DNA from: a virus
Reading direction: 5' to 3' (one strand)
Virus record (IMG/VR): IMGVR_UViG_3300023179_000054
Coordinates: 1 to 64,000 of that record
DNA: 64,000 nucleotides
Position numbers and translations under genes: made by a program. This document shows positions 2,167 to 23,632 of this stretch, piece by piece. Positions within the stretch are counted from its first letter, which is position 1. Each line of letters opens with the position of its first letter. The notes below the pieces were generated by a model, which worked only from the letters and a program-made list of their open reading frames with translations, had not been told where the DNA came from and searched no databases.

Positions 2167-2174
2167 CTATTTAG
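2167..2174 (-). promoter_or_regulatory. CTAAATAG late-promoter-like motif
   Basis: CTAAATAG on the minus strand overlaps the stop of the halogenase-like gene and opens the 170-base gap before the secreted peptidase. It matches the CTAAATA element used as late promoter in marine T4-like phages, and the same string recurs in other gaps of this window. Confidence 0.35.
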
Positions 2175-3444
2175 TCACCGAGTATTCTCCATTTACAAAT
2201 TTTTCAGGATCAACATTTAAACCTTCAAGATATTGTCTTATGACAGCATTAGGATGTGGTACATAATGTGGATAATCACCTTTACCATTTTTATAATTAA
2301 CATATTGATTACAAAAATCTATCCAATCTGGTTTTTTTAATAAATATTTTATAGATTTATTTTTCGTTATCTTCCAAAAATCACTATACATCATATTACC
2401 AACATAGTTTAATACAATAAGATCAAATAATCTTGAAGAAAGACCGCTATGTAAAGTATTGAGCATTTCTTCAAAAGGTAAATTAACGTTCGTGAATTTA
2501 TTTATAAGTAGATCACTTTCATATTCATGTGTAATGTTATATAATTTTAATAATATATGTCTTGTGAAATAAAAATAATTATGTAATGGTATACCTTGGA
2601 TAGGTTCATAGAAATATAATTTATTACCCATACTTATTATACGGCCGTTGATTGGTTTTTTCACACTATAAGAAGGCCAATATAGTTCTTTAACATTATC
2701 TATTGGTATATCTTTATTTAATTCTTTAAAATGTTTTAAAGCCTCTTCTTTATCGGTTATATCTTTATTATACAGATATCCAAACGCTTTTCTGTTTCTA
2801 GTGTTTATACCAAATTGCCATCCATTTTTATGGAAAAGCACTTCTGTATATGGGTGATTATATTGTTGATGATGTTGGAATAATAATACTGAATTAACAG
2901 TCTCAAACTCTGGAAAATTATACTTACCTGAATTTAATTCTTCTTTTGTCGGAAACCCTCTACAATCAAATAGATAGTCAAATGAATATGTAGCATTTTC
3001 TCCATGCGCTGTAGCAACATTATCGGTTTGAGAGATATGTTTAATATTGTCATGTATTTCTAGTAATCTGTTATCATATATTTCATTAATCCTTTTAAAG
3101 ACAAAATCACTAAATTTTTCGCTACTCATATGCGCGCCTGTACCTACATAATTAATATCAAACATAGAATTTTCATTATTTTCCCATGAATGTCTGGCAC
3201 CTATTCTCAGTATTAGGTCGATTTGCTCATGTTCTTTGATACTATGTTTTAATTTTAAAGCAGTAGATAAACCTCTAAATATACCTGGGCTTAAACTTTC
3301 ACCTATCGACATTTTAGGAATATCAGGATTACTAATAATAGATACTCTTATATCTCTAGAATCCAAGAATTCATTTTCTACACCGAACATAACGGCCGCA
3401 CAAACTGCGGCCGCCGAACCCGTTCCAATAATTCCAATTTTCAT
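2167..3444 (-). CDS. Divergent tryptophan-halogenase-like flavoprotein
   Basis: A 425-residue FAD-binding protein of the tryptophan-halogenase superfamily. The N-terminal dinucleotide motif is G7-T-G9-S-A-A, an altered GxGxxG. It keeps the SIGESLSP segment (halogenase GEAT region), GWQFGI in the position of the WxWxIP motif, and an FYEPIQG segment equivalent to IEPLESNG. Where halogenases carry the catalytic lysine, the best alignment here places arginine or a non-lysine residue, so classic chlorination is doubtful. It follows a small secreted protein gene with a TGATG overlap. It could be a monooxygenase or a halogenase with altered chemistry. Confidence 0.7.
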   Translation of the reverse strand: MKIGIIGTGSAAAVCAAVMFGVENEFLDSRDIRVSIISNPDIPKMSIGESLSPGIFRGLSTALKLKHSIKEHEQIDLILRIGARHSWENNENSMFDINYVGTGAHMSSEKFSDFVFKRINEIYDNRLLEIHDNIKHISQTDNVATAHGENATYSFDYLFDCRGFPTKEELNSGKYNFPEFETVNSVLLFQHHQQYNHPYTEVLFHKNGWQFGINTRNRKAFGYLYNKDITDKEEALKHFKELNKDIPIDNVKELYWPSYSVKKPINGRIISMGNKLYFYEPIQGIPLHNYFYFTRHILLKLYNITHEYESDLLINKFTNVNLPFEEMLNTLHSGLSSRLFDLIVLNYVGNMMYSDFWKITKNKSIKYLLKKPDWIDFCNQYVNYKNGKGDYPHYVPHPNAVIRQYLEGLNVDPEKFVNGEYSVTK

Positions 3445-3809
3445 CAGATACCTTTTTCTTTATTTAATTGTGCCTCAAATACTTTATGTAGACCTTCAAC
3501 CGTATCCGAATTATAGACCACATCGGTCATCATGGCAAGTAAACAGATTGTATCCTCATTAGGAACGCTGGCAGTAAGAGCAATAGATGTGCCGGAAATC
3601 CAAATAGTTTCAACCACTTTCTCTTTATTCGTCATATTGAGAAGAGGGAAAAACTTAGCATCACCAAAGGTCTTGATAACAGTTTCTTTCTTATCACAGA
3701 CTAATTTTTCTTCCTGTTTAGCAGGTGCTTTTGTCGCAGCATGTCCTACCGAATGAAAGTAAGCATAGGTTAAAAAGAAGGATGTTATTAGTGCCGAAAT
3801 ATACTTCAT
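3444..3809 (-). CDS. Small secreted protein
   Basis: A 121-residue protein with a Sec signal peptide (MKYISALITSFF core, cleavage after the HAA region near residue 24). The mature part is mixed and contains a pair of cysteines (CDK and CLL) that could form a disulfide in the periplasm. The start at 3809 is chosen because GGAG lies upstream and the ATGA overlap couples it to the preceding YkgJ-like gene; an upstream ATG has no signal peptide. No known family. Confidence 0.7.
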   Translation of the reverse strand: MKYISALITSFFLTYAYFHSVGHAATKAPAKQEEKLVCDKKETVIKTFGDAKFFPLLNMTNKEKVVETIWISGTSIALTASVPNEDTICLLAMMTDVVYNSDTVEGLHKVFEAQLNKEKGI

Positions 3810-4234
3810 CCTGTTTCTCCAATATCTCTCACAAATTCTGGTGTGCCGATAAAAGTCCAACCACCATCTATTTGATACTTTAAGTTAATTATTCCACCAT
3901 TTATGTGTTCGAGAAAGAACCAAGAAAGAACTCTTGGATCCATTCTTTGGCCTAATTCTACCAGTTGTAGATAGGAATGGCCTTTTTCTTCTCTTTTGGT
4001 GATTAGAACTTTGATAACATCTGGTTTCATCCACGCAGGTATATCATCATTACTTAACCACTGACACTTGAAAACCTTACATGGGTCTTCCGGTCTGTTT
4101 TCATATATGGTACATCCTTTATGCCCCATAAAATGACAAGGGCGGCCTGGTGAGAAATGTTTACCATGAGCCTCACCAAATAGCCACCCTTCACAACATA
4201 CCGTGCAACCATCACAATTTCTATTCATTCTCAT
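3806..4234 (-). CDS. YkgJ-like cysteine cluster protein
   Basis: A 142-residue protein of the YkgJ family, proposed zinc- or Fe-S-binding proteins. It has CDGCTVCC at residues 8-15, then PCHF, GCTIYENRP and CKVFKCQW, giving eight cysteines in the family arrangement. The C-terminal half is not conserved. A second ATG two codons in is an alternative start. YkgJ-like genes occur in many T4-like marine phages; function unknown. Confidence 0.75.
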   Translation of the reverse strand: MRMNRNCDGCTVCCEGWLFGEAHGKHFSPGRPCHFMGHKGCTIYENRPEDPCKVFKCQWLSNDDIPAWMKPDVIKVLITKREEKGHSYLQLVELGQRMDPRVLSWFFLEHINGGIINLKYQIDGGWTFIGTPEFVRDIGETG

Positions 4235-4505
4235 ACTTTATATGGACTCGATTACTATAACTAACAAGAGGAAGGTCAGACCTGCCGCTTGCGTGTTTAT
4301 ATAAAACCTTTTTAATAGGTTCAGTTAGCAGGCCGGCAAAACCATCTGGTATACGAATACCCTCTATAACATTATATTCATAAAGTTTAAAGGTCTTGAT
4401 ATACTCTCGTTTAGCCATTTCTTCATCCTCAGCATCAATAATCATGATTGCCTGGAGATGACCTTCTTTATTATCTACATTAGTTGTAATTGTATAGTAG
4501 CACAT
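4221..4505 (-). CDS. Hypothetical protein
   Basis: A 94-residue soluble protein with no recognised family. AGAGG lies upstream of the ATG, and the stop overlaps the next gene by 14 bases. The beta-alpha pattern with an acidic helix (DAEDEEMAKREY) recalls small phage regulatory folds, but nothing specific can be said. Confidence 0.65.
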   Translation of the reverse strand: MCYYTITTNVDNKEGHLQAIMIIDAEDEEMAKREYIKTFKLYEYNVIEGIRIPDGFAGLLTEPIKKVLYKHASGRSDLPLVSYSNRVHIKYENE

Positions 4506-4514
4506 GTTTACCTC

Positions 4515-4856
4515 TTACCAGCCGATATCATCCTCTTCAACAACCGTTGCGCCTGGACTATTCTTAATAATTACATTTTTACGGACCGGTGCCTGACGAG
4601 GATAAGCATACACAGGAGCACCGTAAACTGGAGCACCATAAACGTAAGGATAAGAGTAAGTTTGAGCAGCAAGGGCGCCGCCGATAAGACCACCAACTAA
4701 TCCGGCACCGAGCATAGCACCGCCATAACCCCAACCGTATCCACCGTATCCCCATCCACCATAACCATATCCACCCCAAAACTGTGCCTTTGCTGGAGCA
4801 GCAGCGGCCATACTAATTCCGATAGCAGCAACAATTGCGATAACCTGCTTTTTCAT
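4515..4856 (-). CDS. Secreted glycine/tyrosine-rich protein
   Basis: A 113-residue precursor with a classical signal peptide (cleavage at AKA-Q, about residue 24). It is followed by GYGG/GWGYGG repeats, a hydrophobic GAGLVGGLIGG stretch, and repeated YGAPVY units, ending acidic (EEDD). The composition resembles bacterial glycine-rich outer-membrane or surface proteins and is unusual for a phage. It is first after a strong TTGACA promoter at 4891-4919, so it should be expressed early as a single gene. Confidence 0.75.
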   Translation of the reverse strand: MKKQVIAIVAAIGISMAAAAPAKAQFWGGYGYGGWGYGGYGWGYGGAMLGAGLVGGLIGGALAAQTYSYPYVYGAPVYGAPVYAYPRQAPVRKNVIIKNSPGATVVEEDDIGW

Positions 4857-4890
4857 GTTCGATTCCTTTTCTATTCCGAACTATACATAC

Positions 4891-4919
4891 ATCCTATCAC
4901 AAGGAAAAGATAATGTCAA
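4891..4919 (-). promoter_or_regulatory. Sigma70-type promoter
   Basis: TTGACA (4914-4919), 17-base spacer, TAGGAT (4891-4896) on the minus strand, about 35 bases upstream of the secreted Gly/Tyr-rich gene. The -35 box is perfect. Confidence 0.7.
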
Positions 4920-4922
4920 TAG

Positions 4923-5831
4923 TTATTCCAAGAATTCCTTAAATGTCAAAGGAACTCTGTTTTCCGTTATTGCGGTTTGGAATTCTTCGCCGCCATTAAG
5001 GACTTTAATTTTAGAAAAATGCCTCACAAGACCATTATATATTTTTTTAATTGGTTCATTATCAAGCATTTTTACCGTAAGACCTTTATGGGAAACTTTC
5101 AGTTTCATTCTCGTCTGTATTGGTCTAATGATTGCTGTTTTATCGGATGGAACTAAGGCCCACTGGAAAATGGTTCTCATCTGTCTCGGTTTTGTTTCTA
5201 CACGAAAACAATTCATCTGTAAATCTTTTGTCATTCTTGAAGCAAGAGCATCCAACATTTCTTCTGGTGTATTGGCCTTAGCAAGCGCCTTTTCTGCCAA
5301 CTCTTTTCTACACTCGCTGGATTTTCTCCACATATCCTGTGTGTCGGTTATACCAGTTTGAAATCCAGCCCATGGAAAATCTACACCATGATTTGTTCTG
5401 ACAATAGTTTCGCTGGTAGGTATTGAGCGGATTCTGGATTTATATTCACCTTTACCACCATCTTTTCTTGCTGCTTCAATAACTAATAACTTTTGTGGAG
5501 TTGCGAGAAAGATGTATCCTGTCATCTGCTGTTGAACGATATAATTGGCAGCATCTCTTTGTTTCATATGGAGTGCTTTATAGATTGTATCACCGTCTTT
5601 TTTATTTGTTTCAGCATTTAATGATGGAGTTAGGCTGGTAGATATGATAACGAGACCGTCATGGTTCATACCTTCTTGGTATTTAATTTCATGGTCATAC
5701 ATAACAAGTATTTCACCGACCTTATCATTTTCCTCATCTCGAAAAGATACATCGGAAACATAATCTTGGTCTCTATTTTTTGCTAAAATCCAGCCTTTGT
5801 CTTCGAAATACTTTGCTGCTATGATACACAT
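4923..5831 (-). CDS. Ntn-hydrolase-like protein with N-terminal Cys
   Basis: A 302-residue protein starting Met-Cys, followed by GWILAKNRDQDY. Removal of Met would expose Cys2 as an N-terminal nucleophile, as in C45 acyltransferases, bile-salt hydrolases and the TANGO2/NRDE family, whose NRD(E/Y) motif is matched here by NRDQ. A GLVIISTSLTP strand and an RTNH segment near residue 146 fit the NTN fold. It probably hydrolyses an amide bond; the substrate is unknown. The gene lies between two early promoter units. Confidence 0.6.
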   Translation of the reverse strand: MCIIAAKYFEDKGWILAKNRDQDYVSDVSFRDEENDKVGEILVMYDHEIKYQEGMNHDGLVIISTSLTPSLNAETNKKDGDTIYKALHMKQRDAANYIVQQQMTGYIFLATPQKLLVIEAARKDGGKGEYKSRIRSIPTSETIVRTNHGVDFPWAGFQTGITDTQDMWRKSSECRKELAEKALAKANTPEEMLDALASRMTKDLQMNCFRVETKPRQMRTIFQWALVPSDKTAIIRPIQTRMKLKVSHKGLTVKMLDNEPIKKIYNGLVRHFSKIKVLNGGEEFQTAITENRVPLTFKEFLE

Positions 5832-5832
5832 G

Positions 5833-6033
5833 TTATCTTAACCTATTGATTTTATCAACAATAGTTTCCGGTTCTATTAACTCTTTCAAACGTTTAACTT
5901 CGGAATGACAAATTGCCCTAGACGGGTCCTTCCAATCAAATTCGTAGGCCAGTCTAAGGCGTTCTTGCCATTCTTTTAGTTCTGCTTGGAGTTTTTGCTT
6001 CTCTTTTAGAACAGTAAAATCTACAACGGACAT
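5833..6033 (-). CDS. Small coiled-coil protein
   Basis: A 66-residue, mostly helical protein with heptad-like charged repeats (residues 8-30 and 45-60). GGGGGTG precedes the ATG, and a CTAAATA motif lies 19 bases upstream of the start. No family recognised. Confidence 0.6.
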   Translation of the reverse strand: MSVVDFTVLKEKQKLQAELKEWQERLRLAYEFDWKDPSRAICHSEVKRLKELIEPETIVDKINRLR

Positions 6034-6052
6034 ATAATCACCCCCGTTGTAG

Positions 6053-6059
6053 TATTTAG
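6053..6059 (-). promoter_or_regulatory. CTAAATA late-promoter-like motif
   Basis: CTAAATA on the minus strand, 19 bases before the ATG of the coiled-coil gene at 6033. This spacing would give a short leader that contains only the ribosome binding site. Confidence 0.4.
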
Positions 6060-6060
6060 T

Positions 6061-6291
6061 TTACTTGTCCTCTTTTGTAGGAGCAGCAAAATATCCAGGA
6101 TAATAGGAGTTTTCTGTGTGATGGTTAGCGGCAACGTGTGCGCCTCTAAGTCCACCTTTTAAACCACTTGACGGCATGGTTGAGGCACCGGCCGCATAAC
6201 CATAGTTTTCATAAGTTTCACTCTTATACTCGGTAGCAAGTGCTGGTGTGGTGAGTAGCGAAACTGTTAGTAAGGCAATAAACTTATTCAT
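6061..6291 (-). CDS. Small secreted protein
   Basis: A 76-residue precursor with a signal peptide (cleavage at ALA-T, about residue 19). The mature part is a short, Gly/Ser/Tyr/His-rich tail without recognisable domain. It stands behind its own sigma70-like promoter at 6361-6390. Together with other secreted proteins in the first 10 kb it suggests early modification of the host envelope or periplasm. Confidence 0.65.
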   Translation of the reverse strand: MNKFIALLTVSLLTTPALATEYKSETYENYGYAAGASTMPSSGLKGGLRGAHVAANHHTENSYYPGYFAAPTKEDK

Positions 6292-6360
6292 TTGCTTTCC
6301 TTTCAGTTGTTTGTCTCCTAAAATAGCGAGACATTCCTATGCTGCGATGCAACATATACT

Positions 6361-6390
6361 ATTATATAGGCACCGAAAGGGTCTTGGCAA
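6361..6390 (-). promoter_or_regulatory. Sigma70-type promoter
   Basis: TTGCCA (6385-6390), 18-base spacer, TATAAT (6361-6366). The -10 box is perfect and the -35 has one mismatch. It is placed about 70 bases upstream of the small secreted gene. Confidence 0.6.
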
Positions 6391-6398
6391 GTGATTTT

Positions 6399-7052
6399 TT
6401 AAGGAATTCTAATCCATTCTCTTTCTTGAGGAGAACTTTCGACTTTGGTACAGCTAGGAAAACTTACAGATAATCTTTTTGTAAGTGATTTCACCTCATG
6501 GCAGTAATGAGCCGGCGCATAACAAACATCACCAGGTTCCATTATTATATCAAATATAGGTTCTTCATCAAGGTGTTTTATTTTAAATTCTCTAGGATAA
6601 TCCTTAATATTCCACACTCTCATATTTGATATACCTTCAACCTGAATCATTAAATTATGTGAGTAATCTAGATGAATTCCAAAACCGGAGTTTTGTTCTT
6701 CTGTCAAATCGAAATATATATGTGCATCTGTAGGAAAACCAGTTATTACATCTAATTCTTCACATATAGTATTAATTTTCTCATTAACTCTTGATGCGTC
6801 TGTGATATGACAATGATATTTTTTTATTATTTCTTTGATGATAGAAGGTGGAAAACAATTTATATCTGATACCCAGGCTTGGTAAGGCCATTCGTATATT
6901 TCTTTAAAATTAGCTCTAAATCTATCTTGATTATTAAAAGGTCTTAGATTAAACAAATTTTCCAATTCTTTCCATGAGAAAATATCCTTGACGGCGTTTC
7001 TCGCATAAAAAGGTTTTAGTTCTTTAATTCTTTCTTTAATATTTTCCAACAT
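6399..7052 (-). CDS. JmjC/cupin-type 2-oxoglutarate oxygenase
   Basis: A 217-residue protein of the cupin_4/JmjC hydroxylase group, related to ribosomal oxygenases. The iron triad is H127-x-D129 in GIHLDYSH and a distal histidine in APAHYCHEV (H185, alternatively H182). The MRVWNI strand between them fits the double-stranded beta helix. It starts directly after the FkbM-like gene and ends the modification cluster 6.4-9.5 kb. Likely protein or small-molecule hydroxylase. Confidence 0.7.
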   Translation of the reverse strand: MLENIKERIKELKPFYARNAVKDIFSWKELENLFNLRPFNNQDRFRANFKEIYEWPYQAWVSDINCFPPSIIKEIIKKYHCHITDASRVNEKINTICEELDVITGFPTDAHIYFDLTEEQNSGFGIHLDYSHNLMIQVEGISNMRVWNIKDYPREFKIKHLDEEPIFDIIMEPGDVCYAPAHYCHEVKSLTKRLSVSFPSCTKVESSPQEREWIRIP

Positions 7053-7856
7053 TTAGATATATTCCCCTACTCCTGGCGGATGACCGACATGCCAGTAATG
7101 GTCGTAAATCAACCAATACCGTGGAGGATTGTAAAGGTATTCTGGTGTCTTATCATCGGAGAAATTATTACCAGTCAAATCTTTTCTTACAAAGAAGGCA
7201 TTAGCACCTGTAACGTTAGTTCCAACAAGATCATAACCTTTTCTATCAGCAAGTTCGGTTATGGCCTTTAGACTTGAACCCATGTAATCTGTACCATCCC
7301 ATCTATATTCGGTGTTATAAACAGGAACTCTAACTATATTGGCAGGCCACTTGGCATTATACTCGATACAGATAACTTTTGGTTTAATCTCTAAAGCATC
7401 AAGTAAGTGAATATCCATACCATCAATATCGATAGAAAGAAAATCTAGGTCTTGTGGTACTCCAAGAGAGTTAAAGTTTCTGTTGATATTATCTTTTGTA
7501 ATTTGACCAATAGCAACTCTTAATTTATCTTTATTGATAAAAGACTTAAAGTTATTCTCTATTGTGGAGGCCTTTGAAACATCGGACTCGAACCAATAAC
7601 CAACCCAGTTCTTGTGTAGAAGGTAATGCGTATTACACTCAATACCATTTTCCAAACCAATTTCAGCAAATGTACCGCTGTATATTCCAAGGCGATAAAA
7701 GATTTCTTCGATAATTCCATCTTCGTCACCTTGACTATAGACCTTATTACCATATGGTTCAAGGCGTTTAGAGTTTTCTTGAAACCAATAAGATTTTACA
7801 GCATCGATTTCTTGACGGGCCAAATAAGCATTATTTCTTTGTAGATAATCACTCAT
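7053..7856 (-). CDS. FkbM-like methyltransferase family protein
   Basis: A 267-residue protein with a GTFAEIGLENGIECNTHYLL segment, the glycine-rich loop typical of FkbM-related SAM methyltransferases, preceded by the SQGDEDGIIEEIF motif common to this subgroup. An acidic DIDGMD follows near residue 143. AAGGTGA precedes the ATG. It lies between two oxygenases and the sulfation genes, so a joint role in modifying a sugar or metabolite is plausible. The methylated group is usually a sugar hydroxyl in FkbM relatives. Confidence 0.6.
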   Translation of the reverse strand: MSDYLQRNNAYLARQEIDAVKSYWFQENSKRLEPYGNKVYSQGDEDGIIEEIFYRLGIYSGTFAEIGLENGIECNTHYLLHKNWVGYWFESDVSKASTIENNFKSFINKDKLRVAIGQITKDNINRNFNSLGVPQDLDFLSIDIDGMDIHLLDALEIKPKVICIEYNAKWPANIVRVPVYNTEYRWDGTDYMGSSLKAITELADRKGYDLVGTNVTGANAFFVRKDLTGNNFSDDKTPEYLYNPPRYWLIYDHYWHVGHPPGVGEYI

Positions 7857-7868
7857 AATATCACCTTT

Positions 7869-8369
7869 TTATTTTAAAAATGTTAAATTCTCGTTTTTTA
7901 CAAGTATACCTAAACTTGGAACAATTCTTCTTTTAGAACCTATTACAGGATTGGTTTTATGCAATTGTTGTGATGCTATACATAACCAACAACCTTTTTC
8001 TTCTATATCAACTATATTATCATCGATAATAGGATCACCACCAATTTCCGGTTTAGAAATCATAATGTTAAATCTTATATGTGTATATCCAGGAAGAGTA
8101 GAATCTGTATGTGGATGAACAAAAGCACCTTCGAAATTACATCCTATAAAATTACCAAATCTAGGTTCTGGTTTCCATTCATGTATACCAAATTTATGAG
8201 CCAATTTTATTTTTTCTTGTTCTATTACTTCATCTTGAACATGAGACATAAAAAAACGACCAGGCCCGGAACTATTCGGTTTAAACATATTGAAATTATC
8301 ATCAACGAATTTTAATACATAATTTCTGAAATTATCATCAACAGCATTTTCTATTTTGTAAGGATACAT
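7869..8369 (-). CDS. 2OG-Fe(II) oxygenase
   Basis: A 166-residue protein with a complete iron triad: H87-T-D89 in HPHTDST, and H137 in QQLHKTN, with R147/R148 for 2-oxoglutarate binding. Family resemblance is to small phage aspartyl/prolyl-hydroxylase-like enzymes. AAGGA lies upstream of the ATG, and the start overlaps the kinase gene by 19 bases. Substrate unknown. Confidence 0.75.
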   Translation of the reverse strand: MYPYKIENAVDDNFRNYVLKFVDDNFNMFKPNSSGPGRFFMSHVQDEVIEQEKIKLAHKFGIHEWKPEPRFGNFIGCNFEGAFVHPHTDSTLPGYTHIRFNIMISKPEIGGDPIIDDNIVDIEEKGCWLCIASQQLHKTNPVIGSKRRIVPSLGILVKNENLTFLK

Positions 8370-8767
8370 ATCAATTCCTTTATGATATTATCTTCCTGAT
8401 TATAGTCGGTTATTCTATAGTCGTATTTAGAAGGCACCTCAAACAACTTGTTAGTATCTTCAAATCTACCTTCTTTAATAGTATCTATCCATACTGTGAT
8501 ATCAGCATCAAATATTTTTCTTGTTTCTTCTGTAGGGCAAACGAAATCACACACAGCGGTAAAATGAGATGACTTAGCAAAGTTTGCCATTCTATATGCT
8601 TGTCTCAATCTACCTTTATCAGAGAAATCCCAATCATCAAAAATTGTTCTTATGAAATCTGCGTTATATATATTTATAGAAAAAGGACAAGATTTAACTA
8701 ATTTCTCAGTAAATGTGGTCTTACCGGCCCCAGGTAAACCCATTACTAAGATTTTAAGTTTTTCCAT
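8351..8767 (-). CDS. APS-kinase-like P-loop kinase
   Basis: A 138-residue protein with Walker A GLPGAGKT (residues 10-17) and a CysC-like middle: an R-x-AYRMANF segment, CDFVCPTEETR (the APS-kinase F-(I/V)-(S/C)-P-x2-x2-R motif) and an acidic V-W-I-D-T strand. APS kinase makes PAPS, the sulfate donor. The gene overlaps the sulfotransferase by 22 bases, which supports a shared sulfation role. It is shorter than cellular CysC (about 200), so another small-metabolite kinase remains possible. Confidence 0.7.
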   Translation of the reverse strand: MEKLKILVMGLPGAGKTTFTEKLVKSCPFSINIYNADFIRTIFDDWDFSDKGRLRQAYRMANFAKSSHFTAVCDFVCPTEETRKIFDADITVWIDTIKEGRFEDTNKLFEVPSKYDYRITDYNQEDNIIKELICILTK

Positions 8768-9531
8768 ATTTCAAGTCCACTATATTTTTCCCAAATGTCA
8801 GGTGGCAGTATGGTTTTTCTGTTTGGCGGAGTAATTATTTTTTTAACATCATGTAGCCCTGGTGTATTGACACTTTTATCAAATATTTCAGAACCAATAA
8901 TATTTTTTATGTCGTTAAAATTATGCTCAAAATAAGGCTCTTCAATATGTTCATATATCATTCTCATTACAGGTTCTGGATGAAGCACCAGAATATCATA
9001 TTCAATTATTAAACAGTTTTTAAAATTAGGATTAGAATAAATCAACTCTTTCAATCCATTATAAGGATTTTTTATAAGATTTTCCATATATTGTTCACAT
9101 CTATTATATATAGATGAACTAGATTGACTAGAAGAATAATTAGGTTTCGAATACAAATTCTTTCTGGATAAATTTTCCAGAGAATCTAATATCCAACATA
9201 TATCTCTAACGGTTATTATCATTTTATGATCAGGATATAACCTGTTTAACAGTTCTTTACGAGCCGTCCATGTTCTATTGTGGTCGAAATACACATTTTC
9301 ATTACCATCATATAAAGTTTCTAAGAATGACCTTAGAATTTCATCCATTTTATCCCCAAAAAAACAACTTTTATAATTTCCTGGGCCATTTATACTTTCA
9401 ATAATATTATCAAAAATATGCCTAACAGGAGATGTTATATCAGCTCTAAATCTTGGATTCTGATTAAGTATTGCGGATAATAGAGTGCTTCCGGACCTTG
9501 GCAGTCCGGAAGTAAATACTATCTTTTTCAA
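8746..9531 (-). CDS. PAPS-dependent sulfotransferase
   Basis: A 261-residue protein with the 5'-phosphosulfate-binding loop GLPRSGSTLL at residues 9-18, the hallmark of P-loop sulfotransferases. A KMIITVRD strand follows near residue 100, as in the 3'-phosphate-binding region. The start is TTG overlapping the RlpA-like stop (TTGA), with GGAGAG upstream. Adjacent to an APS-kinase-like gene, it probably moves sulfate from PAPS to a sugar, lipid or small metabolite. Confidence 0.8.
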   Translation of the reverse strand: MKKIVFTSGLPRSGSTLLSAILNQNPRFRADITSPVRHIFDNIIESINGPGNYKSCFFGDKMDEILRSFLETLYDGNENVYFDHNRTWTARKELLNRLYPDHKMIITVRDICWILDSLENLSRKNLYSKPNYSSSQSSSSIYNRCEQYMENLIKNPYNGLKELIYSNPNFKNCLIIEYDILVLHPEPVMRMIYEHIEEPYFEHNFNDIKNIIGSEIFDKSVNTPGLHDVKKIITPPNRKTILPPDIWEKYSGLEIWKNLKS

Positions 9532-10010
9532 TTTAATCTCTCCACGGTTACCGATGATGTCGATCCCATACCGATAGCCCGAGCAGCACCGTAAGACAAA
9601 TCAAGATGACGGCCGCGGACAAAGGGTCCTCTATCATTAACCGTGACATTTACGCAACCTCTGTGACAGACACGAAGGACTGTGCCAAATGGATATGTCC
9701 GGTGGGCGCATGTGTGAGCATTAGGGTTGAAGACGGCACCCGATGCGGTGTGCCTCGAAAGTCGTTCACCATGCCCGTAGAAAGAAGCAACCATGCGACT
9801 CCCTCCATGATCATGATTACCCCAACTAGCAGTCCAATCATTAGTATCGTCGCTTTGAACGCTGCGGCCATGTTTACCTCTTGTCACTTTCTGCTGTTGC
9901 TGTGGTTGTTGCCCGCCAAAGGCACCATCGAAAAAATCAGATAACGGATCGGCAGCGGCCGAAGTTGTTAGTGTAATGAAAATGGCCGCAGCCGATAGAT
10001 ACTTATTCAT
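9528..10010 (-). CDS. Secreted RlpA-like double-psi beta-barrel protein
   Basis: A 160-residue precursor: signal peptide (cleavage near AAA-D, residue 20), a Gln-rich linker, and a C-terminal RlpA-like domain (about residues 74-158) with ASFYGHG, HRTYPFGT and NDRGPF. RlpA cleaves naked peptidoglycan strands at septa. The catalytic Asp (D126 in NDRGPF) is present, but the Glu of the TASGE motif is Ala92 here, so lytic activity may be lost or the protein may only bind peptidoglycan. AAGGA precedes the ATG. Confidence 0.78.
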   Translation of the reverse strand: MNKYLSAAAIFITLTTSAAADPLSDFFDGAFGGQQPQQQQKVTRGKHGRSVQSDDTNDWTASWGNHDHGGSRMVASFYGHGERLSRHTASGAVFNPNAHTCAHRTYPFGTVLRVCHRGCVNVTVNDRGPFVRGRHLDLSYGAARAIGMGSTSSVTVERLN

Positions 10011-10026
10011 AATAAATCCTTATTGT

Positions 10027-10103
10027 TGGTCGGGGTAGCAGGATTTGAACCTACGACATCTTGCTCCCAAAGCAAGCACTCTACCAGTCTGAGCTACACC
10101 CCG
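10027..10103 (-). tRNA. tRNA-Pro (UGG)
   Basis: A 77-base cloverleaf with acceptor CGGGGTG/TACCCCG-type pairing, anticodon stem CTTGC/GCAAG around a seven-base loop with TGG, TTCAAAT T-loop and an encoded CCA. It lies between small early genes and the RlpA-like gene. Confidence 0.93.
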
Positions 10104-10109
10104 TATTAA

Positions 10110-10250: not shown

Positions 10251-10259
10251 GATTATCTC

Positions 10260-10382: not shown

Positions 10383-10383
10383 A

Positions 10384-10688: not shown

Positions 10689-10716
10689 AGCAAATCTCCA
10701 TATTATATATGATAGT

Positions 10717-11341: not shown

Positions 11342-11365
11342 CTATACTCCTTGATGTAATAAAAT

Positions 11366-15300: not shown

Positions 15301-15323
15301 AAGTTTCTCCTTAGTTATTGCTA

Positions 15324-16106
15324 TTAGGCAGTCTCGCCTAAAGCATCTTTATCTAAATCACCACGATTAACATAATTTTGTTTAAACCAATCCTGTAAAT
15401 CCTTAAATCTACCAGGTTCCCATGTTCCCATGTTTTCTATATTAGCATCAATATAATCCTTACCCCATGTATTGGTAAGCATATGTTTTGTCTTATGTGA
15501 AGGACAATAAGTATTACAAGTTGGATTATACTGCTCTTTTGGTAAAATGGCAACCGGTCTATTGTATCTTAAAGTAAATCTTGTTAGCATGTAACAGGCC
15601 GTAGTGTCCTTTATATAGAAATCCTGTGCTAATGCTTTTCCTTGTTTTACATCAGGTGTATCAGGATAATTATAAAATGTCCTTTTGATTTCATCCATCA
15701 AATCAATCCAAAAAGGATCACCAGCCTTTGAGGCCATCATACAATTCTGGATGAACTCATCATTCATACAGGATTCTAATACAACGAAGTCTTGATCTTT
15801 AATATCATCATAAAAGTTCTGATAGCAATACATATCAAGATCATGATAGATTCCACCATACTTATGTAATAAACAGTATTCAGCAAAATCAATCTTCATA
15901 ATATGAAATGGAAATGATTGATATAGATCCCAATATTGTGAATAATCTTCTTTAACCAATTCTTCCAGTTCTTCATCAGTCCAATTGAAATGAAAATATT
16001 CTCTTTCTGAAAATTGTTTTTTCCATGATTCAATACAGTGGTTCCAAACAGGATGCCATTTTGATTTGTCTGTAGGTCCTGTAGAGTGAATAAGTTTAGG
16101 TATCAT
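15324..16106 (-). CDS. GT32-type glycosyltransferase
   Basis: A 260-residue protein of the DXD-sugar (Och1-like, GT32) family. It starts IPKLIHSTG, has the [21 protein letters not shown] block near residues 92-112 with the metal-binding DLD, and a C-terminal Trp/Asp-rich part. It transfers a sugar from a nucleotide donor, with the acceptor unknown. It is placed between UvsX and the halogenase, away from the main glycan locus. Confidence 0.8.
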
Positions 16107-16288
16107 TATGCCACTTCCTTAAAATGCTGTTGTAATTCTGGAGATAATTTCTCTAATATGTGTCCTGGAATACCAACTCTTACTATATTGGCCAATTCTA
16201 CGATGTTATTAGGAGTAATAATATTTTCATCAGGAACAAATTCATATAAACGAGCTGGTGAATGTTTATGTTTATTATCCTTCTTCAT
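16106..16288 (-). CDS. Small hypothetical protein
   Basis: A 60-residue protein beginning with a basic stretch (KKDNKHKH). AAAGGAG lies upstream at a long spacing of about 11. The start overlaps the halogenase stop by 14 bases, and the stop overlaps the GT32 start. Not recognised. Confidence 0.55.
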   Translation of the reverse strand: MKKDNKHKHSPARLYEFVPDENIITPNNIVELANIVRVGIPGHILEKLSPELQQHFKEVA

Positions 16289-17846
16289 AATATATTTTCT
16301 CCTTTAGAATATCAATATGTTCTGGTTCATTCTTAACTAATTCGGCCCAGTAGTCTCTTTTTTTATTCAATCTATTTGCTGCTTTTAAAGCATTTTTATA
16401 AAAATCATTATTGAGTGAAAAAGTATCTAGCAACTGTCTATCTGTTGGGAAAAAATTTGTTCCTGTTGCAACAGCATTTATTCCCGAATCATCAAATTGG
16501 TAATTATTAAATTTCATTTCCGAAACATTTTTAAACGCATCAACATGTGAGACAACATTTAAATTACACATAAATTCTGAATATTCTCTTCTACCTACAT
16601 CTCTCCAATATTCTGTATCATCTCGGTGTGATAAAGCATAATGTAAGGCCACAAATTCCGAAAATCCTTTAAATTGTGTCCTACATGCCAAACTATAAGC
16701 ATCTTTATCAAACTGGCTAACATAACCTTCTGGTTCTCTATCTAATACTCTAATAAGTTTAACTAAAAACATATGGACGCTATAAAGACCATTACTTTCT
16801 AATGGTTCAATAAAACCACCCGAAAGGCCGATAGGTACAACGTTTTTATACCAAAGTCTTTCATAACAACCTACTCTAAACTTTAATTTACGAAAGTTGA
16901 GTTCTCCGTTAAGTAGACCTTTGGATTGTAAATGATCTTTAAATTCTTCCAGAGCGACATCATCATCAATATACTTATCTGAATAAACGTATCCGGTTCC
17001 CATTCTACTCCAAACAGGAGTATTCCACACCCACCCATTACCTATAGCATGACAATCGGTGTATGTTACGAGTTGCTTTCTTTTATCTGTATATGGAACT
17101 TGGACGGCCCATGCCGAATTATTTGGTAGAATTTTTGTTAGTGAAATAAAAGGAACATCCAACTTACTATATAAAACCGATCTGAAACCGGTACAATCAA
17201 TATATAAATCAGCGATAACTTCTTCACCATTATCTAATATAAGTTTTTTAATACCATCTTCGTCTGTATGAATATCTTTAACCTCAGCAAGGATATTTTT
17301 AACACCTTTTGGCATAGCATAATGTGATTTCAACCATAAAGCAAACTGTACCGCATTAAAATGATAAGCACAATCATTATCAAAACTATAGTTAGGAAGT
17401 ATATTATTTTTATCAGAAATTTTATTTTGATTAACAAGTGCCATAATAGGATAAACACAATCAGCATAATCGCTAATAGGTGTTTCCGGATAAAACATCT
17501 TTTTTAAATACCAGTCATTTTTATTATTAAGATTGCCATCAACATTAGTGCCACCAAAAGGATAATGGAATGAACCAGCACCTTTTTTATAGAAATCTGT
17601 AAATCTAATGGAGAGTTTATATGTGGCATCACAATGCTTCATGAAATCTTCATCTTTAATCTCTAACAGTCGTAGCCATTCGTTAATGAAACCTAAGGTA
17701 GCTTCACCAACACCAACTGTAGGAATATTAGGACTTTCTATGAGTGTGATATCTCGACCTTTAAGACGGGCAATAAGAGTAGCAGCAGTCATCCATCCAG
17801 CAGAACCTCCACCAACGATAACAATCTTTTTAATCTGCTTACTCAT
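16275..17846 (-). CDS. FAD-dependent tryptophan halogenase
   Basis: A 523-residue flavin-dependent halogenase of the PrnA/RebH family, which uses FADH2, oxygen and halide to halogenate an electron-rich ring. Visible are GxGxxG (G12-G-G-S-A-G17), GEAT (48-51), the catalytic lysine K77 in ATYKLSI (PrnA K79), the WxWxIP-like motif W272-V-W-N-T-P277, and GFIEPLESNGL. The start at 17846 has GAGG upstream and an ATGA overlap with gp43. A reduced-flavin supply protein is not evident. Marine phage VirX1 is a precedent for halogenation of varied substrates. Confidence 0.88.
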   Translation of the reverse strand: MSKQIKKIVIVGGGSAGWMTAATLIARLKGRDITLIESPNIPTVGVGEATLGFINEWLRLLEIKDEDFMKHCDATYKLSIRFTDFYKKGAGSFHYPFGGTNVDGNLNNKNDWYLKKMFYPETPISDYADCVYPIMALVNQNKISDKNNILPNYSFDNDCAYHFNAVQFALWLKSHYAMPKGVKNILAEVKDIHTDEDGIKKLILDNGEEVIADLYIDCTGFRSVLYSKLDVPFISLTKILPNNSAWAVQVPYTDKRKQLVTYTDCHAIGNGWVWNTPVWSRMGTGYVYSDKYIDDDVALEEFKDHLQSKGLLNGELNFRKLKFRVGCYERLWYKNVVPIGLSGGFIEPLESNGLYSVHMFLVKLIRVLDREPEGYVSQFDKDAYSLACRTQFKGFSEFVALHYALSHRDDTEYWRDVGRREYSEFMCNLNVVSHVDAFKNVSEMKFNNYQFDDSGINAVATGTNFFPTDRQLLDTFSLNNDFYKNALKAANRLNKKRDYWAELVKNEPEHIDILKEKIYYEEG

Positions 17847-20401
17847 GAAAAGAAATCCTCTAAACTTGAGACCTTCTCGGTCTTCCACCCAATACTATCA
17901 AGGATTATTTCGAGAGGGTAAAGAAAGGCCTTCTCGAACTGTGTATCATAATCGATATATTTAGTTAAGGCAAATTCTTCTGGTATGCCGCCTTGAGGGA
18001 AAGAAATAACATTAGATTGAATAGTATTTGGTTCTTTGAGGAAGATAAACTTCAGTTTTTCACCATTCTGAATTAGAGGATACTTTGATGTTAGTCCATT
18101 AGTATTAAGGAAATGGTTATACATGAGAGCACCTCTAACGTGAATGGGAGTACCGCTGCCATAGATGGATCGTTTGTCAGCATACTTAACCAGACCATTA
18201 AGACCACGGGGGAAAGAAATATCAGCAAGTGGTAAAGTTTCGAACTCTTGACGAAATTCTTGTATAAATTGCTGAATAGCATTTTCATCTTTGTCAAAAA
18301 TAACATCAACAGCCTCTCTTAGTTTGTCTCTACATGCTGATGGTGTCGAGGACTTAACCATCTCAAGGCCCATAACTTTCTTTTTAGGTTGAGCATATTG
18401 CACACCTTCTGAGTTATGAACGTTTAGAATATATCTTTTCTTGGCAGTCCAGATTGCCTTATCTGCCAAGACCTCTCGCTTCATTACTATCTTTTGCTGG
18501 AAGACGTTAGTATATTCCCCAAGTTCTCGGCAAGCATTATCAATAACAGGTTGAATTTTATTCTCACAGACCTTATCAAGGAAGGAGATGATGCCTGATG
18601 AATTCCTAACTGCACCGTCTGCGTTAATAGTTTTGTCCACAAGAGGGCCAAGGCGTAGATACACCGAGTCTGTATCGACCGCAATAACATAATCATCCTC
18701 CGTTTTTAATATTTTGTTGAGATACTTATTAATCTCTCCTTCGATCCACCGTATTGACAATTGGCCAGTAGTCGTGACCGCAATCGCATTCCGTAGGTCG
18801 AAGAACCGAAAATACTTAGAACCCAGTGCCCCGTATAACGAGTTGAGCGATACTTTTTTAGAGAGTTGCAAGTTGTTATACCTTGCAATTCGGTTTTTGA
18901 TTTCTTTTCTTTTTTCTTTATCACCTTTTTCTTTTTCATATTCCTGTTCCGCTTCTAACATCTTTTTCTTATAAACTTTACGGTCAGCGAACATCTTCTC
19001 GACCATTTCAGGCATAAACCCTTGTTTATCACGGCGATAGAATTGTCCGTTGGCGGTTAAACAAACATCTTTATTTTTTAACCCAGATAGATCCAACTTA
19101 CGGGCCAATAGGCGATCAACACTAACACCGTCTGAAATAATGCTACGCATAGCATCATCGTAATCAACAGGCTCAATAATTGTTTCAGGAGATATATTGG
19201 ATCCCATAATGACACTAGGATACTCACTATTAACGTCAAAAGAAGCAACCCAATTATGAAATCCATTAATGGTATCCTTAACATAGGCACCCACATATGC
19301 GGCCTCCTTTTCGTGGCGTTCAATTGGTGGAACAACTACATTCTTACCTTTGAGATGATGGAAACAAATAACGTCCCACATTCTAACTTGTGCGAACACA
19401 TCCTCATAATTACATTTGTTATCATAAGATAAGGTAAGGGCCAATTCAATCAACTTATTTTTATCATCAATCTTGTCAACAAGGTCAACGTCTTTAATGT
19501 TATAGTCGATGAACTTTTGATAGTCCTCCTTATACAAGTTCAACAAAGAACCGTATTCTTCATAGGATAGTTTGCGTTCACCAAGTTCAACGTGTGCGAT
19601 ACTATCCAACTTATAGGACTCTTGTGATTTTCCGTCTTTAGCATATCGCTGGTACAAATCAAGCAAATCAAGTGTGGCAATACCTAAAATAGAATAGGAC
19701 TTAATCTTTCTATTCATACCAAGGTCAACCATCTTATCGTTGATTACACCCCACGGAGAAAGTTTCTTGGCCTCATTCTCTCCCATTAGTTTGCGAATAC
19801 GATTGACCAAATATGGTATATCGAAGTTCTGGACATTCCAACCTGTAATGATGTCAGGATATTCTGATTGCCACCAACCAAGAAACTTACGAATAAGATC
19901 AAACTCATCCGCACATTTCATATACGTAACATCATCTCTGCTATTAGAATAATCACCACAACCAAGTGTAGTGAATTGTCCGTCCATTTTAATTGTGATT
20001 GCTGTTAGTGGGCCGTTAGCATGTTCTGGTTCAGGGAATCCACCTTCTGGCGGTTCACCAACCTCGATATCGATGTTGGCCACTTTGATAAGGGACATAT
20101 CCCAATCAACAACACCTTTAAACTCATCGGCAATAAAGCAATATTGATAACGAGTATTACCATAAACTTTAAAGTTCTCAACATTATCATATTGAGAAAC
20201 GAAATCCCGGGCATCTCTAATGTTGCCAGGTTTTACCTTACCAACATAGTCGCCATGAATAGTTTTATATTTTGTGGGGGTCTGTGAAGGCACGAAAAGA
20301 GAAGGGTGATACTCGACTTTATGTCGCACCCTTCTCCCTTCTTCAACACCTCGATATAGAATTCTTCCGCCCCATACCTCAACGTTTGTGTAAAATTTCA
20401 T
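17843..20401 (-). CDS. 43: DNA polymerase gp43 (family B)
   Basis: An 852-residue replicative polymerase with 3'-5' exonuclease. The exonuclease motifs are D111-I-E113, WNVQNFDIPYL, and the YNIKDVDLV motif. The polymerase motifs are DVNSEYPS (A), the NSLYGALG helix (B) and VDTDSVYL (C), with a KKRY segment near the thumb. T4 gp43 is 898 residues. The ATG overlaps the stop of the upstream small gene by one base. Confidence 0.96.
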   Translation of the reverse strand: MKFYTNVEVWGGRILYRGVEEGRRVRHKVEYHPSLFVPSQTPTKYKTIHGDYVGKVKPGNIRDARDFVSQYDNVENFKVYGNTRYQYCFIADEFKGVVDWDMSLIKVANIDIEVGEPPEGGFPEPEHANGPLTAITIKMDGQFTTLGCGDYSNSRDDVTYMKCADEFDLIRKFLGWWQSEYPDIITGWNVQNFDIPYLVNRIRKLMGENEAKKLSPWGVINDKMVDLGMNRKIKSYSILGIATLDLLDLYQRYAKDGKSQESYKLDSIAHVELGERKLSYEEYGSLLNLYKEDYQKFIDYNIKDVDLVDKIDDKNKLIELALTLSYDNKCNYEDVFAQVRMWDVICFHHLKGKNVVVPPIERHEKEAAYVGAYVKDTINGFHNWVASFDVNSEYPSVIMGSNISPETIIEPVDYDDAMRSIISDGVSVDRLLARKLDLSGLKNKDVCLTANGQFYRRDKQGFMPEMVEKMFADRKVYKKKMLEAEQEYEKEKGDKEKRKEIKNRIARYNNLQLSKKVSLNSLYGALGSKYFRFFDLRNAIAVTTTGQLSIRWIEGEINKYLNKILKTEDDYVIAVDTDSVYLRLGPLVDKTINADGAVRNSSGIISFLDKVCENKIQPVIDNACRELGEYTNVFQQKIVMKREVLADKAIWTAKKRYILNVHNSEGVQYAQPKKKVMGLEMVKSSTPSACRDKLREAVDVIFDKDENAIQQFIQEFRQEFETLPLADISFPRGLNGLVKYADKRSIYGSGTPIHVRGALMYNHFLNTNGLTSKYPLIQNGEKLKFIFLKEPNTIQSNVISFPQGGIPEEFALTKYIDYDTQFEKAFLYPLEIILDSIGWKTEKVSSLEDFFS

Positions 20402-20715
20402 TATTTTCCTGGGATAATAAGTTTGCTGTCTGGTACCATAACGCCACCGAATACGGCATTATATTGATTAATGAACTCAGAAATAGGATTCATCTTTGCT
20501 AACACATGTGCCGCATTAATCTCAACTTCTTTGTCTTCTGACCATTCACAATATGGTGCGAAACCAACTGATGGTTCTTTTGGATTCATCTGGCTCGGCA
20601 CGACCATAACACGAACAGGATTTTTTAGTGTGATAGTATCCTTGGTCTCTTTAACAATTTCACCGAGGATATCTTGCCCATTTAGTAGGCGTAGGTTTTT
20701 AATATTTGTAGCCAT
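20401..20715 (-). CDS. Conserved phage protein, possible LSm-like fold
   Basis: A 104-residue beta-rich protein beginning KNLRLLNGQDILGEI, a pattern of strand-turn-strand reminiscent of Sm-like proteins, followed by V-R-V-M-V-V-P and a helical C-terminus (NPISEFINQY). This short gene type is common next to polymerase in marine T4-like phages; function is unknown. It is coupled both ways by single-base overlaps. Confidence 0.65.
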   Translation of the reverse strand: MATNIKNLRLLNGQDILGEIVKETKDTITLKNPVRVMVVPSQMNPKEPSVGFAPYCEWSEDKEVEINAAHVLAKMNPISEFINQYNAVFGGVMVPDSKLIIPGK

Positions 20716-20924
20716 TAGTCTGCAATCTCCATTAAATAATCATAAACTCCAACCGTCACCCATTTCTCAGGAATGTGAGTGGTTCGGTTTCCATTCTCAC
20801 CCATAAATGAGTAAGAGTTATCAAGATCCATAATCTTGACAATTCGCTCCCACTTGCCATCAAAGGCACGCTGCTTAAAAGCAGTCTCTAAAACATGCAT
20901 CTTACTTTCATGAAAAGGTACCAT
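20715..20924 (-). CDS. Small hypothetical protein
   Basis: A 69-residue protein. I start it at 20924, where AAGGAG is followed by 7 bases and ATG; the longer frame begins inside the upstream gap. It joins the next gene by TAATG. Mixed alpha-beta, not recognised. Confidence 0.6.
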   Translation of the reverse strand: MVPFHESKMHVLETAFKQRAFDGKWERIVKIMDLDNSYSFMGENGNRTTHIPEKWVTVGVYDYLMEIAD

Positions 20925-20934
20925 AGTAATCTCC

Positions 20935-21552
20935 TTAGTCCCATAGGCCACGATAATACTTACCAAACAATCTAAATCCGTTATTTATTCTATCATTATA
21001 CTCTTTTATACCCTCTCTGTCAACCCAATAATCTGGGTTTGTTTGTGTCATTTGAACTCTTTGATACGGAACACCGTCATCATCTTCCCATTTGTTCCAA
21101 TCATACACAGGTGTTCCGTGAACAAACTTATCTTCCCAACTATCATCAAGTTCCTGCTCGAAGGCCCAGATCATTTCATTAAGAACCCATTCCCACTTGT
21201 AATGAACCCAGTTATCATCATCTCCACCATGGCGCATATGTTCTGGTAAGTCCTCATCATCAACAATAGGAGAACCTTGCTTGGTTGCTTTGAGTTGTTT
21301 AAGCATAGGAAGAATGATATGTGCGAGTGTATTGTCCATAGACCAAGTATCATAATCATCAATATGAACTTTGACTTTTCGACCACCTTTTAGTTCATGA
21401 ATCCAGTTAAAGAAATCTTCGGCAGGAGTATTTTCACAAATCCAATCGCCAATATCTTCACAGGTTTTTTCACTAACACCTACTTTTTGTAGCAGGTCAA
21501 CGGTTTGATAAACACCCCACCACTTATAATATGGGCCTATGTAAACTTTCAT
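20935..21552 (-). CDS. Conserved hypothetical protein of marine T4-like phages
   Basis: A 205-residue acidic, Trp-rich protein (MKVYIGPY start; DYDTWSMDNTLAHIILPML block at residues 66-84; VDDEDLP). I recall this block as conserved across cyanophage and pelagiphage hypotheticals. No catalytic motif is evident. High Asp/Trp content suggests a soluble binding protein. Confidence 0.65.
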   Translation of the reverse strand: MKVYIGPYYKWWGVYQTVDLLQKVGVSEKTCEDIGDWICENTPAEDFFNWIHELKGGRKVKVHIDDYDTWSMDNTLAHIILPMLKQLKATKQGSPIVDDEDLPEHMRHGGDDDNWVHYKWEWVLNEMIWAFEQELDDSWEDKFVHGTPVYDWNKWEDDDGVPYQRVQMTQTNPDYWVDREGIKEYNDRINNGFRLFGKYYRGLWD

Positions 21553-21563
21553 AATTTAATCCT

Positions 21564-22244
21564 TTATGATTTAACACTAATACTAGACGCTACTACAACT
21601 CTTAATTTATTACTATGTGGTTTTTTAGACATCGCTACTTTATGATTAATAAAAGAAGGAAAAATTATTAAATCATCTTCTTTTGAATTTATATAATTAT
21701 TAACTCGGTACATGGAGTTTTCTTTTTTACTTTTATCTAAATTAATTCCAATTTTCATATAATCAATAAATGGACCTATACTGAGTGGATTTTCAAATTT
21801 TGTGTGTTCGTGAAAATTTGAATCGAATGATAAATAATGTATCATGACAAATTGATTGGAATATCCATCGGCATACTGAGATAGGTGATTATGGCATTCC
21901 ATATGTCCGTTTATACCAACATTAATGTTATCAATACTCCACCTATATAAAATATTATTAATATTTGTTCCATAAATAGATGTCATATAATTTTTTATTA
22001 TGTTATCATATACTAAACCGAGTTGAGTAAAATTTATTTTTTTATATTTTGGATTATCAAAATTACCATAATAATTATGAAAAGAAATATCAGGAGAATT
22101 TTTTAGAGTAGATTCTCTATTGGGGTTTTTTTCATAATTGTAGATAATTGTATCCATTATTTCTTTTTTATTATAAGAATTTGGGTCTATTGCTGTTTTA
22201 TAATAATTAACTTCAAATAGTGTATTTTTTTCCAATAGTGTCAT
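21564..22244 (-). CDS. 2OG-Fe(II) oxygenase-like protein (HxH type)
   Basis: A 226-residue protein related to the 2OG-FeII_Oxy_5 group. It shows MECHNH (H118, H120) in the metal region, IHYLSF, and the EDDLIIFPSFINHKV block typical of the C-terminal half, ending in an Arg-containing strand (RVVVASS). Very AT-rich. It overlaps the ferredoxin gene by 32 bases. Substrate unknown. Confidence 0.65.
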   Translation of the reverse strand: MTLLEKNTLFEVNYYKTAIDPNSYNKKEIMDTIIYNYEKNPNRESTLKNSPDISFHNYYGNFDNPKYKKINFTQLGLVYDNIIKNYMTSIYGTNINNILYRWSIDNINVGINGHMECHNHLSQYADGYSNQFVMIHYLSFDSNFHEHTKFENPLSIGPFIDYMKIGINLDKSKKENSMYRVNNYINSKEDDLIIFPSFINHKVAMSKKPHSNKLRVVVASSISVKS

Positions 22245-22407
22245 ATTGTTCTCTCACTATCTTCACGATGTTGTTGGAGCAGCTGCCGCACACTTGCGAA
22301 CAACCAAGTTCTTTTAGTATGGTGCCAACCGACGGTTGACGTTCCTTACCGTTAATACATTCCTTGACTTTATCTTCGGTAATCAAATTACAGGAGCAGA
22401 TAATCAT
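22213..22407 (-). CDS. Bfd-like [2Fe-2S] ferredoxin
   Basis: A 64-residue protein with C4-x-C6 and C40-x2-C43, the pattern of the BFD-like [2Fe-2S] domain; spacing between pairs is 33 rather than the usual 31-32. In bacteria Bfd reduces bacterioferritin to release iron, and similar domains serve in nitrite reductases and NifU. It is driven by a perfect TTGACA-N17-TATAAT promoter at 22427-22455, so it is an early gene, just before an iron-dependent oxygenase. Confidence 0.75.
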   Translation of the reverse strand: MIICSCNLITEDKVKECINGKERQPSVGTILKELGCSQVCGSCSNNIVKIVREQYDTIGKKYTI

Positions 22408-22426
22408 TCCTCACCTCTACCTATAT

Positions 22427-22455
22427 ATTATAGTATAAAATGGAGTATATGTCAA
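22427..22455 (-). promoter_or_regulatory. Perfect consensus sigma70 promoter
   Basis: TTGACA (22450-22455), 17-base spacer, TATAAT (22427-22432) on the minus strand, ahead of the Bfd-like gene. The -35 end touches the ribosome-binding region of the divergent plus-strand halogenase-like gene at 22457. Confidence 0.85.
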
Positions 22456-22456
22456 T

Positions 22457-23632
22457 ATGAAAAAACTTGCTATTATCGGTCGAGGAACAGCTGGATCTTT
22501 GGCCGCTGCACATTTCCTTAGACATACTGATTGGGAAATAGACTGGTATTTTGATAATGATATTAAACCTCAGGCCGTTGGTGAAGGTTCTAATTTAATT
22601 CTTCCTAATTTTTTAAAAAATTGTTTGAATTTTGAACACCATGATTTATCAAAAATTGATGGTTCTTTTAAAGCATCTATATATAAAGAAGGTTGGGGAA
22701 AAGGTCAAGGATTTCATCATACTTTTGCTCCGCCACTTTTATCATACCATTTTAATGCTAACAAATTACAAGATTATATATTATCTTTAGTTAGAAGTAA
22801 TCCAAAACTAACAATCAAAGAGCAAAATATAATTCATGATAATATAGACTCCGATTTTATTTTAGATAGTTCAGGTCGTCCAAAATCTTACGAAGAATTT
22901 CATTTATCAAAATATATTCCGGTAAATTCAGTCCATGTAAACCAGTGTTATTGGGAATATCCAAGATTTCAATATACTTTAACAATTGCCAGACCATATG
23001 GGTGGGTCTTTGGCATACCTTTACAAAATAGGTGTAGTATTGGATATATGTATAATAATAACATAAACACTCTCGAAGAAGTTAAAGAAGATATAAAACA
23101 TATTTTCACTCAGTTTAACCTTGTACCTAGCGACCAAACAAATACTTTTAGTTTTAAAAATTATTATAGGAAACAAAATTATAGCGAAAGAATATGTTAT
23201 AATGGTAATGCATCTTTTTTCTTAGAACCTATGGAAGCAACATCAATAGGAATGATGCAAGTTATAAATAAATGGTCTCTTGACTTATTTAACGATATCT
23301 CAAATATTGATATTATCAATTATAGATATTATACAGTTAACAAAGAAATTGAATCTGTAATTATGCTACATTATTTTGCCGGATCTATTTACGATACAGA
23401 TTTTTGGAAATTTGCCAAAGAGAGAGGTGAAAAGTGTATGTTGGATTCTTTAACACAAAAAAAATATAAACTTGATAGATCATTTCATGAAATGTTAAAT
23501 GATGTTGATAATAATAAAAGGTTTGAAGGATTTGGAACTTGGAATAAAGAATCATTTAAGCAAAATATAGTAGGTCTTGATGTTAGAGAAAATCTTGATA
23601 ACTTAATTAATAATACAATTATAGGAGAATAA
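22457..23632 (+). CDS. Tryptophan-halogenase-like flavoprotein
   Basis: A 391-residue flavoprotein on the plus strand. It has the dinucleotide motif G8-R-G10-T-A-G13, VGEGSN (halogenase GEAT region), a conserved lysine K72 in GSFKASI aligned with the PrnA catalytic lysine, WVFGIP near residue 182 as the WxWxIP motif, and FLEPMEATSIG as the C-terminal binding motif. It is shorter than PrnA-type enzymes and nearer to the small halogenase-like phage proteins. It leads the only plus-strand block, followed by the spanin pair. Confidence 0.8.
   Translation: MKKLAIIGRGTAGSLAAAHFLRHTDWEIDWYFDNDIKPQAVGEGSNLILPNFLKNCLNFEHHDLSKIDGSFKASIYKEGWGKGQGFHHTFAPPLLSYHFNANKLQDYILSLVRSNPKLTIKEQNIIHDNIDSDFILDSSGRPKSYEEFHLSKYIPVNSVHVNQCYWEYPRFQYTLTIARPYGWVFGIPLQNRCSIGYMYNNNINTLEEVKEDIKHIFTQFNLVPSDQTNTFSFKNYYRKQNYSERICYNGNASFFLEPMEATSIGMMQVINKWSLDLFNDISNIDIINYRYYTVNKEIESVIMLHYFAGSIYDTDFWKFAKERGEKCMLDSLTQKKYKLDRSFHEMLNDVDNNKRFEGFGTWNKESFKQNIVGLDVRENLDNLINNTIIGE

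Follow-up and report, generated by a model that had tools for sequence, protein, structure and literature searches.

The stretch of DNA analysed here (the window) comprises 64,000 nucleotides, positions 1 to 64,000 of the viral record IMGVR_UViG_3300023179_000054, which is 92,407 bases long. The record encodes T4-like genes, including those for a DNA polymerase, an SbcC-like nuclease and, in our reading of its sequences, putative RecA-like and DnaB-like proteins. Three open reading frames that the initial annotation had described as halogenase-like flavoproteins were recovered at the same positions and lengths (Table 1), and are referred to below by their first positions; in the family searches 16275 was represented by a 524-aa reference with one extra N-terminal codon. 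All three match the tryptophan-halogenase family of Pfam, PF04820 (E 2.6e-17 for 2167, 1.2e-101 for 16275 and 8.8e-27 for 22457) and PHROG 2928 (phrog_2928; E 4.9e-41, 7.5e-141 and 2.6e-64, respectively), which confirms their membership of the halogenase family and suggests a common halogenase fold. No PF04820 match beyond these three was found in the whole 92,407-base record. The family matches and the alignments described below support the proposal that a canonical (16275), a minimal (22457) and a lysine-less form (2167) occur in one phage, and the residue differences among the three paralogues are real and beyond chance. It is common, and not new, for a T4-like phage to carry several halogenase copies, with three copies in S-RIM44, three in P-TIM40 and five in one 345-kb record. 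In this large phage record (345,369 bases) four of the five halogenase-family genes lie within about 55-66 kb. In S-PM2 (NC_006820) the region matched as a halogenase homologue contains an in-frame TAA, suggesting a broken copy.

Table 1. Halogenase-family genes of the window and genes of the cassette adjoining 2167
Feature	Position	Strand	Remarks
425-aa lysine-less halogenase-like flavoprotein	2167..3444	-	Lys to R80, Glu to Q283, halide site I285-P286, WQFGIN, GTGSAA
Small protein with N-terminal signal-like stretch	3444..3860	-	One-base overlap with 2167 start; order conserved in two other contigs
Cys-rich protein (phrog_9155)	3806..4234	-	97% identical in relative contig; cassette member
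Secreted-looking Gly/Tyr/Trp-rich protein	4515..4856	-	Conserved in all three contigs; stretch WGGYGYGGWGYGGYGWGYGG
JmjC/cupin-type protein (PF08007)	6399..7052	-	In two of three contigs
Weak FkbM-methyltransferase-like protein	7053..7856	-	Conserved in all three contigs
Small P-loop kinase	8351..8767	-	Weak APS-kinase similarity, below Pfam cut-off
Sulfotransferase-family protein (PF13469)	8746..9531	-	Family match
523-aa VirX1-like flavin-dependent halogenase	16275..17846	-	Canonical motifs GGGSAG, ATYKLS, WVWNTP, EPLESNG
391-aa short halogenase-like protein	22457..23632	+	Lys (K72) and Glu (E260) kept; WVFGIP

The product of 16275 aligns over its full length with VirX1 of cyanophage Syn10 (PDB 6QGM; E 3e-106, about 38% identity). 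Like VirX1, it keeps GxGxxG, the catalytic lysine, a WxWxIP-type motif, EPLE and Fx.Px.Sx.G; these motifs, the catalytic Glu and a PF04820 match over its length place it among the flavin-dependent halogenases. The lysine that it was said to retain is present in ATYKLS and falls in the catalytic column of the alignment. In WVWNTP, Thr stands for the Ile of WxWxIP, as it does in five other members. The canonical character attributed to this gene holds for its motifs, but its type is refined to VirX1-like rather than that of a tryptophan-specific halogenase. Phage halogenases have been known since VirX1. The gene shares four bases with the end of the DNA polymerase gene. A 78% identical homologue is located on IMGVR_UViG_3300032221_000258 alongside a homologue of 2167, so the 2167-type and 16275-type pair co-occurs in a second phage.

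In 22457 the expected lysine was likewise found (K72, in GSFKAS). Homology and the catalytic Lys and Glu point to a halogenase, but WVFGIP takes the place of the strict WxWxIP (Phe is found there in 22 of 54 phage members), and the protein is therefore classed as halogenase-like and a probable halogenase. Compared with VirX1, 22457 and 2167 are much shorter; both, like about two dozen phage relatives, lack the part that corresponds to VirX1 residues about 99-160 as well as portions of the C-terminus. Tryptophan halogenases bind their substrate by regions near residue 100 and 443-461 (PMC8269204), and the broad substrate range of VirX1 was credited to a missing 445-466 lid (PMC7948982). From the missing substrate-binding regions, the active site of the short forms would be open. 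In this respect 22457 resembles the open-site halogenases BrvH and Xcc4156, which also lack the substrate-covering regions, and BrvH (PDB 6FRL) shares with it a Ser at the second halide-amide position; these enzymes, however, are about 500 aa long and have WxWxIP. Short proteins of the cyanophages S-SSM5, S-SSM7, S-RIM4 and S-ShM2 (T4-like GC 212) agree with 22457 and 2167 in length class and domain loss but, unlike 2167, all have Lys. Such short forms already carry the annotation tryptophan halogenase in cyanophages and are not new; we know of no biochemical characterisation of them. A pattern-based scan covering 84,980 bacterial and archaeal species, each represented by one genome, recovered no short proteins of the 22457 type. 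Downstream of 22457 lies a spanin-like pair (Rz1-like LysC match at 23969). Divergent from 22457, positions 22213-22407 (-) encode a 64-aa BFD-like [2Fe-2S] protein (PF04324, above cut-off), possibly an electron carrier, which overlaps the start of a 2OG-oxygenase-like gene (21564-22244).

The catalytic positions of 2167 were read from a main alignment of 57 phage proteins, three of the 2167 lineage and 54 others, including 16275 and 22457. The lysine was suspected to be replaced by Arg or simply absent; Arg80 aligns with it in both MAFFT and profile-profile alignment, pairing with K72 when aligned with the 22457 group. The lysine in ATYKNS of VirX1 lines up with the Lys column of the family profile. 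Hhalign placed the Lys region wrongly when the three-member 2167 profile was compared with that of the long forms, and the short-form profile and multiple alignments were used for this reason. The catalytic column contains Lys in 54/54 members outside the lineage and Arg in 3/3 members within it. Lys is also found in 7/7 additional members, some of them near-identical among themselves or with a protein of the first count, giving 61/61 phage family members examined outside the lineage. As judged by alignment, Arg80 is the replacement for the catalytic Lys. No lysine aligns at this position in sequence or profile alignments, and no non-halogenase monooxygenase family was matched, PF04820 being the sole significant enzyme family.

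The initial annotation had stressed the lysine, but the loss in 2167 is wider, extending to the catalytic Glu, the halide-site residues and the Pro of WxWxIP. The Glu column holds Gln (Q283) in the lineage, against Glu in 47 and Gln in 6 of the 54 others. At the halide-amide positions the lineage has Ile-Pro (Ile285-Pro286), while the first position is T, N or S in 51/54 others; the Thr-Gly/Ser halide-coordinating amides are thus absent by sequence alignment, proline having no amide hydrogen. In WQFGIN, Asn occupies the place of the WxWxIP proline (Pro in 53/54 others). The reported alteration of GxGxxG is genuine and common to both homologues (GTGSAA, GSGSAA and GAGSAS): two of the three glycines are kept, and the third, present in 53/54 others, is Ala or Ser. 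The FAD signatures retained in 2167 are the first two glycines (G7, G9), a VGE-type motif (G48-E49) and a DxxG motif (D160-G163). A proline at the halide site was dropped as a feature unique to 2167, since two near-identical Lys-bearing sequences have Pro at the second position. Six other members retain Lys with Gln in place of the catalytic Glu (EPLQA, EPIQA or EPLQS).

The lineage has three known members, all on uncultured viral contigs; the homologues on IMGVR_UViG_3300032221_000258 and IMGVR_UViG_3300025838_000664 are 63% and 51% identical to 2167. Pattern-based scans of viral contigs gave the same two contigs only, and those of genome contigs gave no relatives of 2167-type or 22457-type queries, absence in such scans being weak evidence. 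Both homologues carry Arg with a shared gene order, so a stray mutation does not account for it, and the altered lysine can be specified as an Arg fixed in the three-member lineage. That 2167 is an ordinary short halogenase with a recent non-functional mutation or an artefactually aligned Arg is very improbable. Between R80 and W87 the alignment does contain a gap of one residue, and without it Leu79 would fall in the Lys column, but R80 is invariant in the three homologues while residue 79 is variable, Lys-bearing sister sequences (LDATLKLGVKFADW) back the K-x-G register, and neither register supplies a Lys.

In the tree the 2167 lineage forms a clade (support 100/100) on a long stem of 1.3-1.8 changes per column, nested in otherwise Lys-bearing short forms (99.9/100). 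The Lys-bearing S-SSM5-type proteins are probably its sister group, with weak support (92.4/65). Compared with the homologue on IMGVR_UViG_3300032221_000258, the most conserved part of 2167 is the core around the last motifs (residues 196-301), with dN 0.105 and dS 1.08 (dN/dS about 0.10), against dN 0.289 and dS 0.97 for the rest. Strong purifying selection thus acts on the regions of the altered WxWxIP and EPLES motifs, and the gene is not decaying. Over the whole gene, dN/dS is 0.24 compared with 0.06-0.19 for the neighbours, 2167 evolving faster.

The gene order from an RlpA-like gene (9528) to 2167 is common to both other lineage contigs (here G001 and L121), a few genes of the stretch being missing from IMGVR_UViG_3300032221_000258. 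The cassette comprises several small secreted-looking proteins and tailoring-type genes, any of which could be linked to the substrate of 2167; the Gly/Tyr/Trp-rich protein is, speculatively, a candidate substrate. The sulfotransferase-family gene beside the small APS-kinase-like kinase (8351-9531, -) is possibly a phage sulfation pair. Positions 4923-5831 (-) encode a protein of 302 aa whose similarity to AAT/TANGO2 is weak and below cut-off; it is found in L121 and is absent from G001.

We consider it probable that 16275 and 22457 are halogenases, and that 2167 is a neofunctionalised, probably non-halogenating FAD enzyme in a conserved tailoring-type cassette. The product of 16275 would be a VirX1-type flavin-dependent halogenase and that of 22457 a shortened halogenase, probably working alike. 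In both, FADH2 and O2 would yield a C4a-peroxyflavin that oxidises halide to HOX, which the lysine would hold near an electron-rich substrate. The 2167 protein would descend from the same short forms as 22457 and would still bind FAD through the signatures kept, with its Lys, catalytic Glu, halide-coordinating residues and WxWxIP proline replaced. Since Lys and other catalytic positions are replaced, its flavin chemistry is probably different: halogenation has most likely been lost and the flavin would serve to oxidise a cassette-linked substrate in another way, plausibly through direct oxygenation by the C4a-peroxyflavin. Replacement of the lysine is reported to abolish halogenation while the C4a-OOH can still form (PMC10696468), the K83A variant of BrvH is inactive (PMC5945002), a Glu to Gln change is reported to inactivate other halogenases (PMC8407142), and WxWxIP has been proposed to block monooxygenation (PMC10696468, PMC5945002). 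More tentatively, the lineage may have lost the halide site and the WxWxIP proline along with the catalytic Lys/Glu pair and become a flavin-dependent oxygenase in a phage tailoring cassette, a natural halogenase-to-oxygenase switch. A search of the 92-kb record for a PF01613 flavin reductase gave no match, although FADH2 could come from the host.

Retention of halogenase activity by 2167 is considered unlikely. In that case Arg80 would hydrogen-bond HOX in place of Lys and Gln283 would orient it, and the enzyme, with its open site, would be slower or differ in selectivity. Arg is a conservative, positively charged substitute, and current models prefer a protonated Lys acting via hydrogen bonding over a haloamine (PMC10696468). 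Gln for Glu is found in the six Lys-bearing phage relatives and a second-position Pro in two, so that neither change need end halogenation. However, the Lys replacements and the Glu to Gln change in the literature are inactive (PMC10696468, PMC8407142), the same lineage also has the Ile-Pro halide site and Asn for the WxWxIP proline, and Lys is kept in all 54 and all 7 relatives. Also rather improbable is that 2167 is a pseudoenzyme, a non-catalytic flavin or ligand binder that, for example, partners or regulates the other two paralogues or enzymes encoded in the cassette. The joint loss of several catalytic residues, the long stem branch and the raised evolutionary rate would fit such a role; the changed motif region is, however, the most conserved within the lineage, more typical of an altered than of a dead active site, and the FAD signature positions remain. 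A non-halogenating flavin oxidation by 2167 is the reading preferred here.

The new part of these observations is the Lys-less lineage with its linked residue changes. No report of a Lys-less halogenase lineage was found in the open-access literature, in a search that was not exhaustive, and a search of open-access papers found no report of K79R. Published work calls the catalytic lysine of flavin-dependent halogenases strictly conserved and presents the determinant of halogenation versus oxygenation in the halogenase fold as a question still open for engineering (PMC10696468). One phage here combines two Lys-bearing paralogues with a member of a natural lineage that is under selection and has Arg, Gln, Ile-Pro and WQFGIN, a ready comparison set. 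The conserved 2167 cassette supplies concrete substrate candidates; no natural substrate of a phage halogenase is known to us. Elsewhere in the window, positions 33437-43489 (-) contain glycosyltransferase, nucleotide-sugar epimerase and UDP-glucose dehydrogenase matches, forming a phage sugar-modification cluster.
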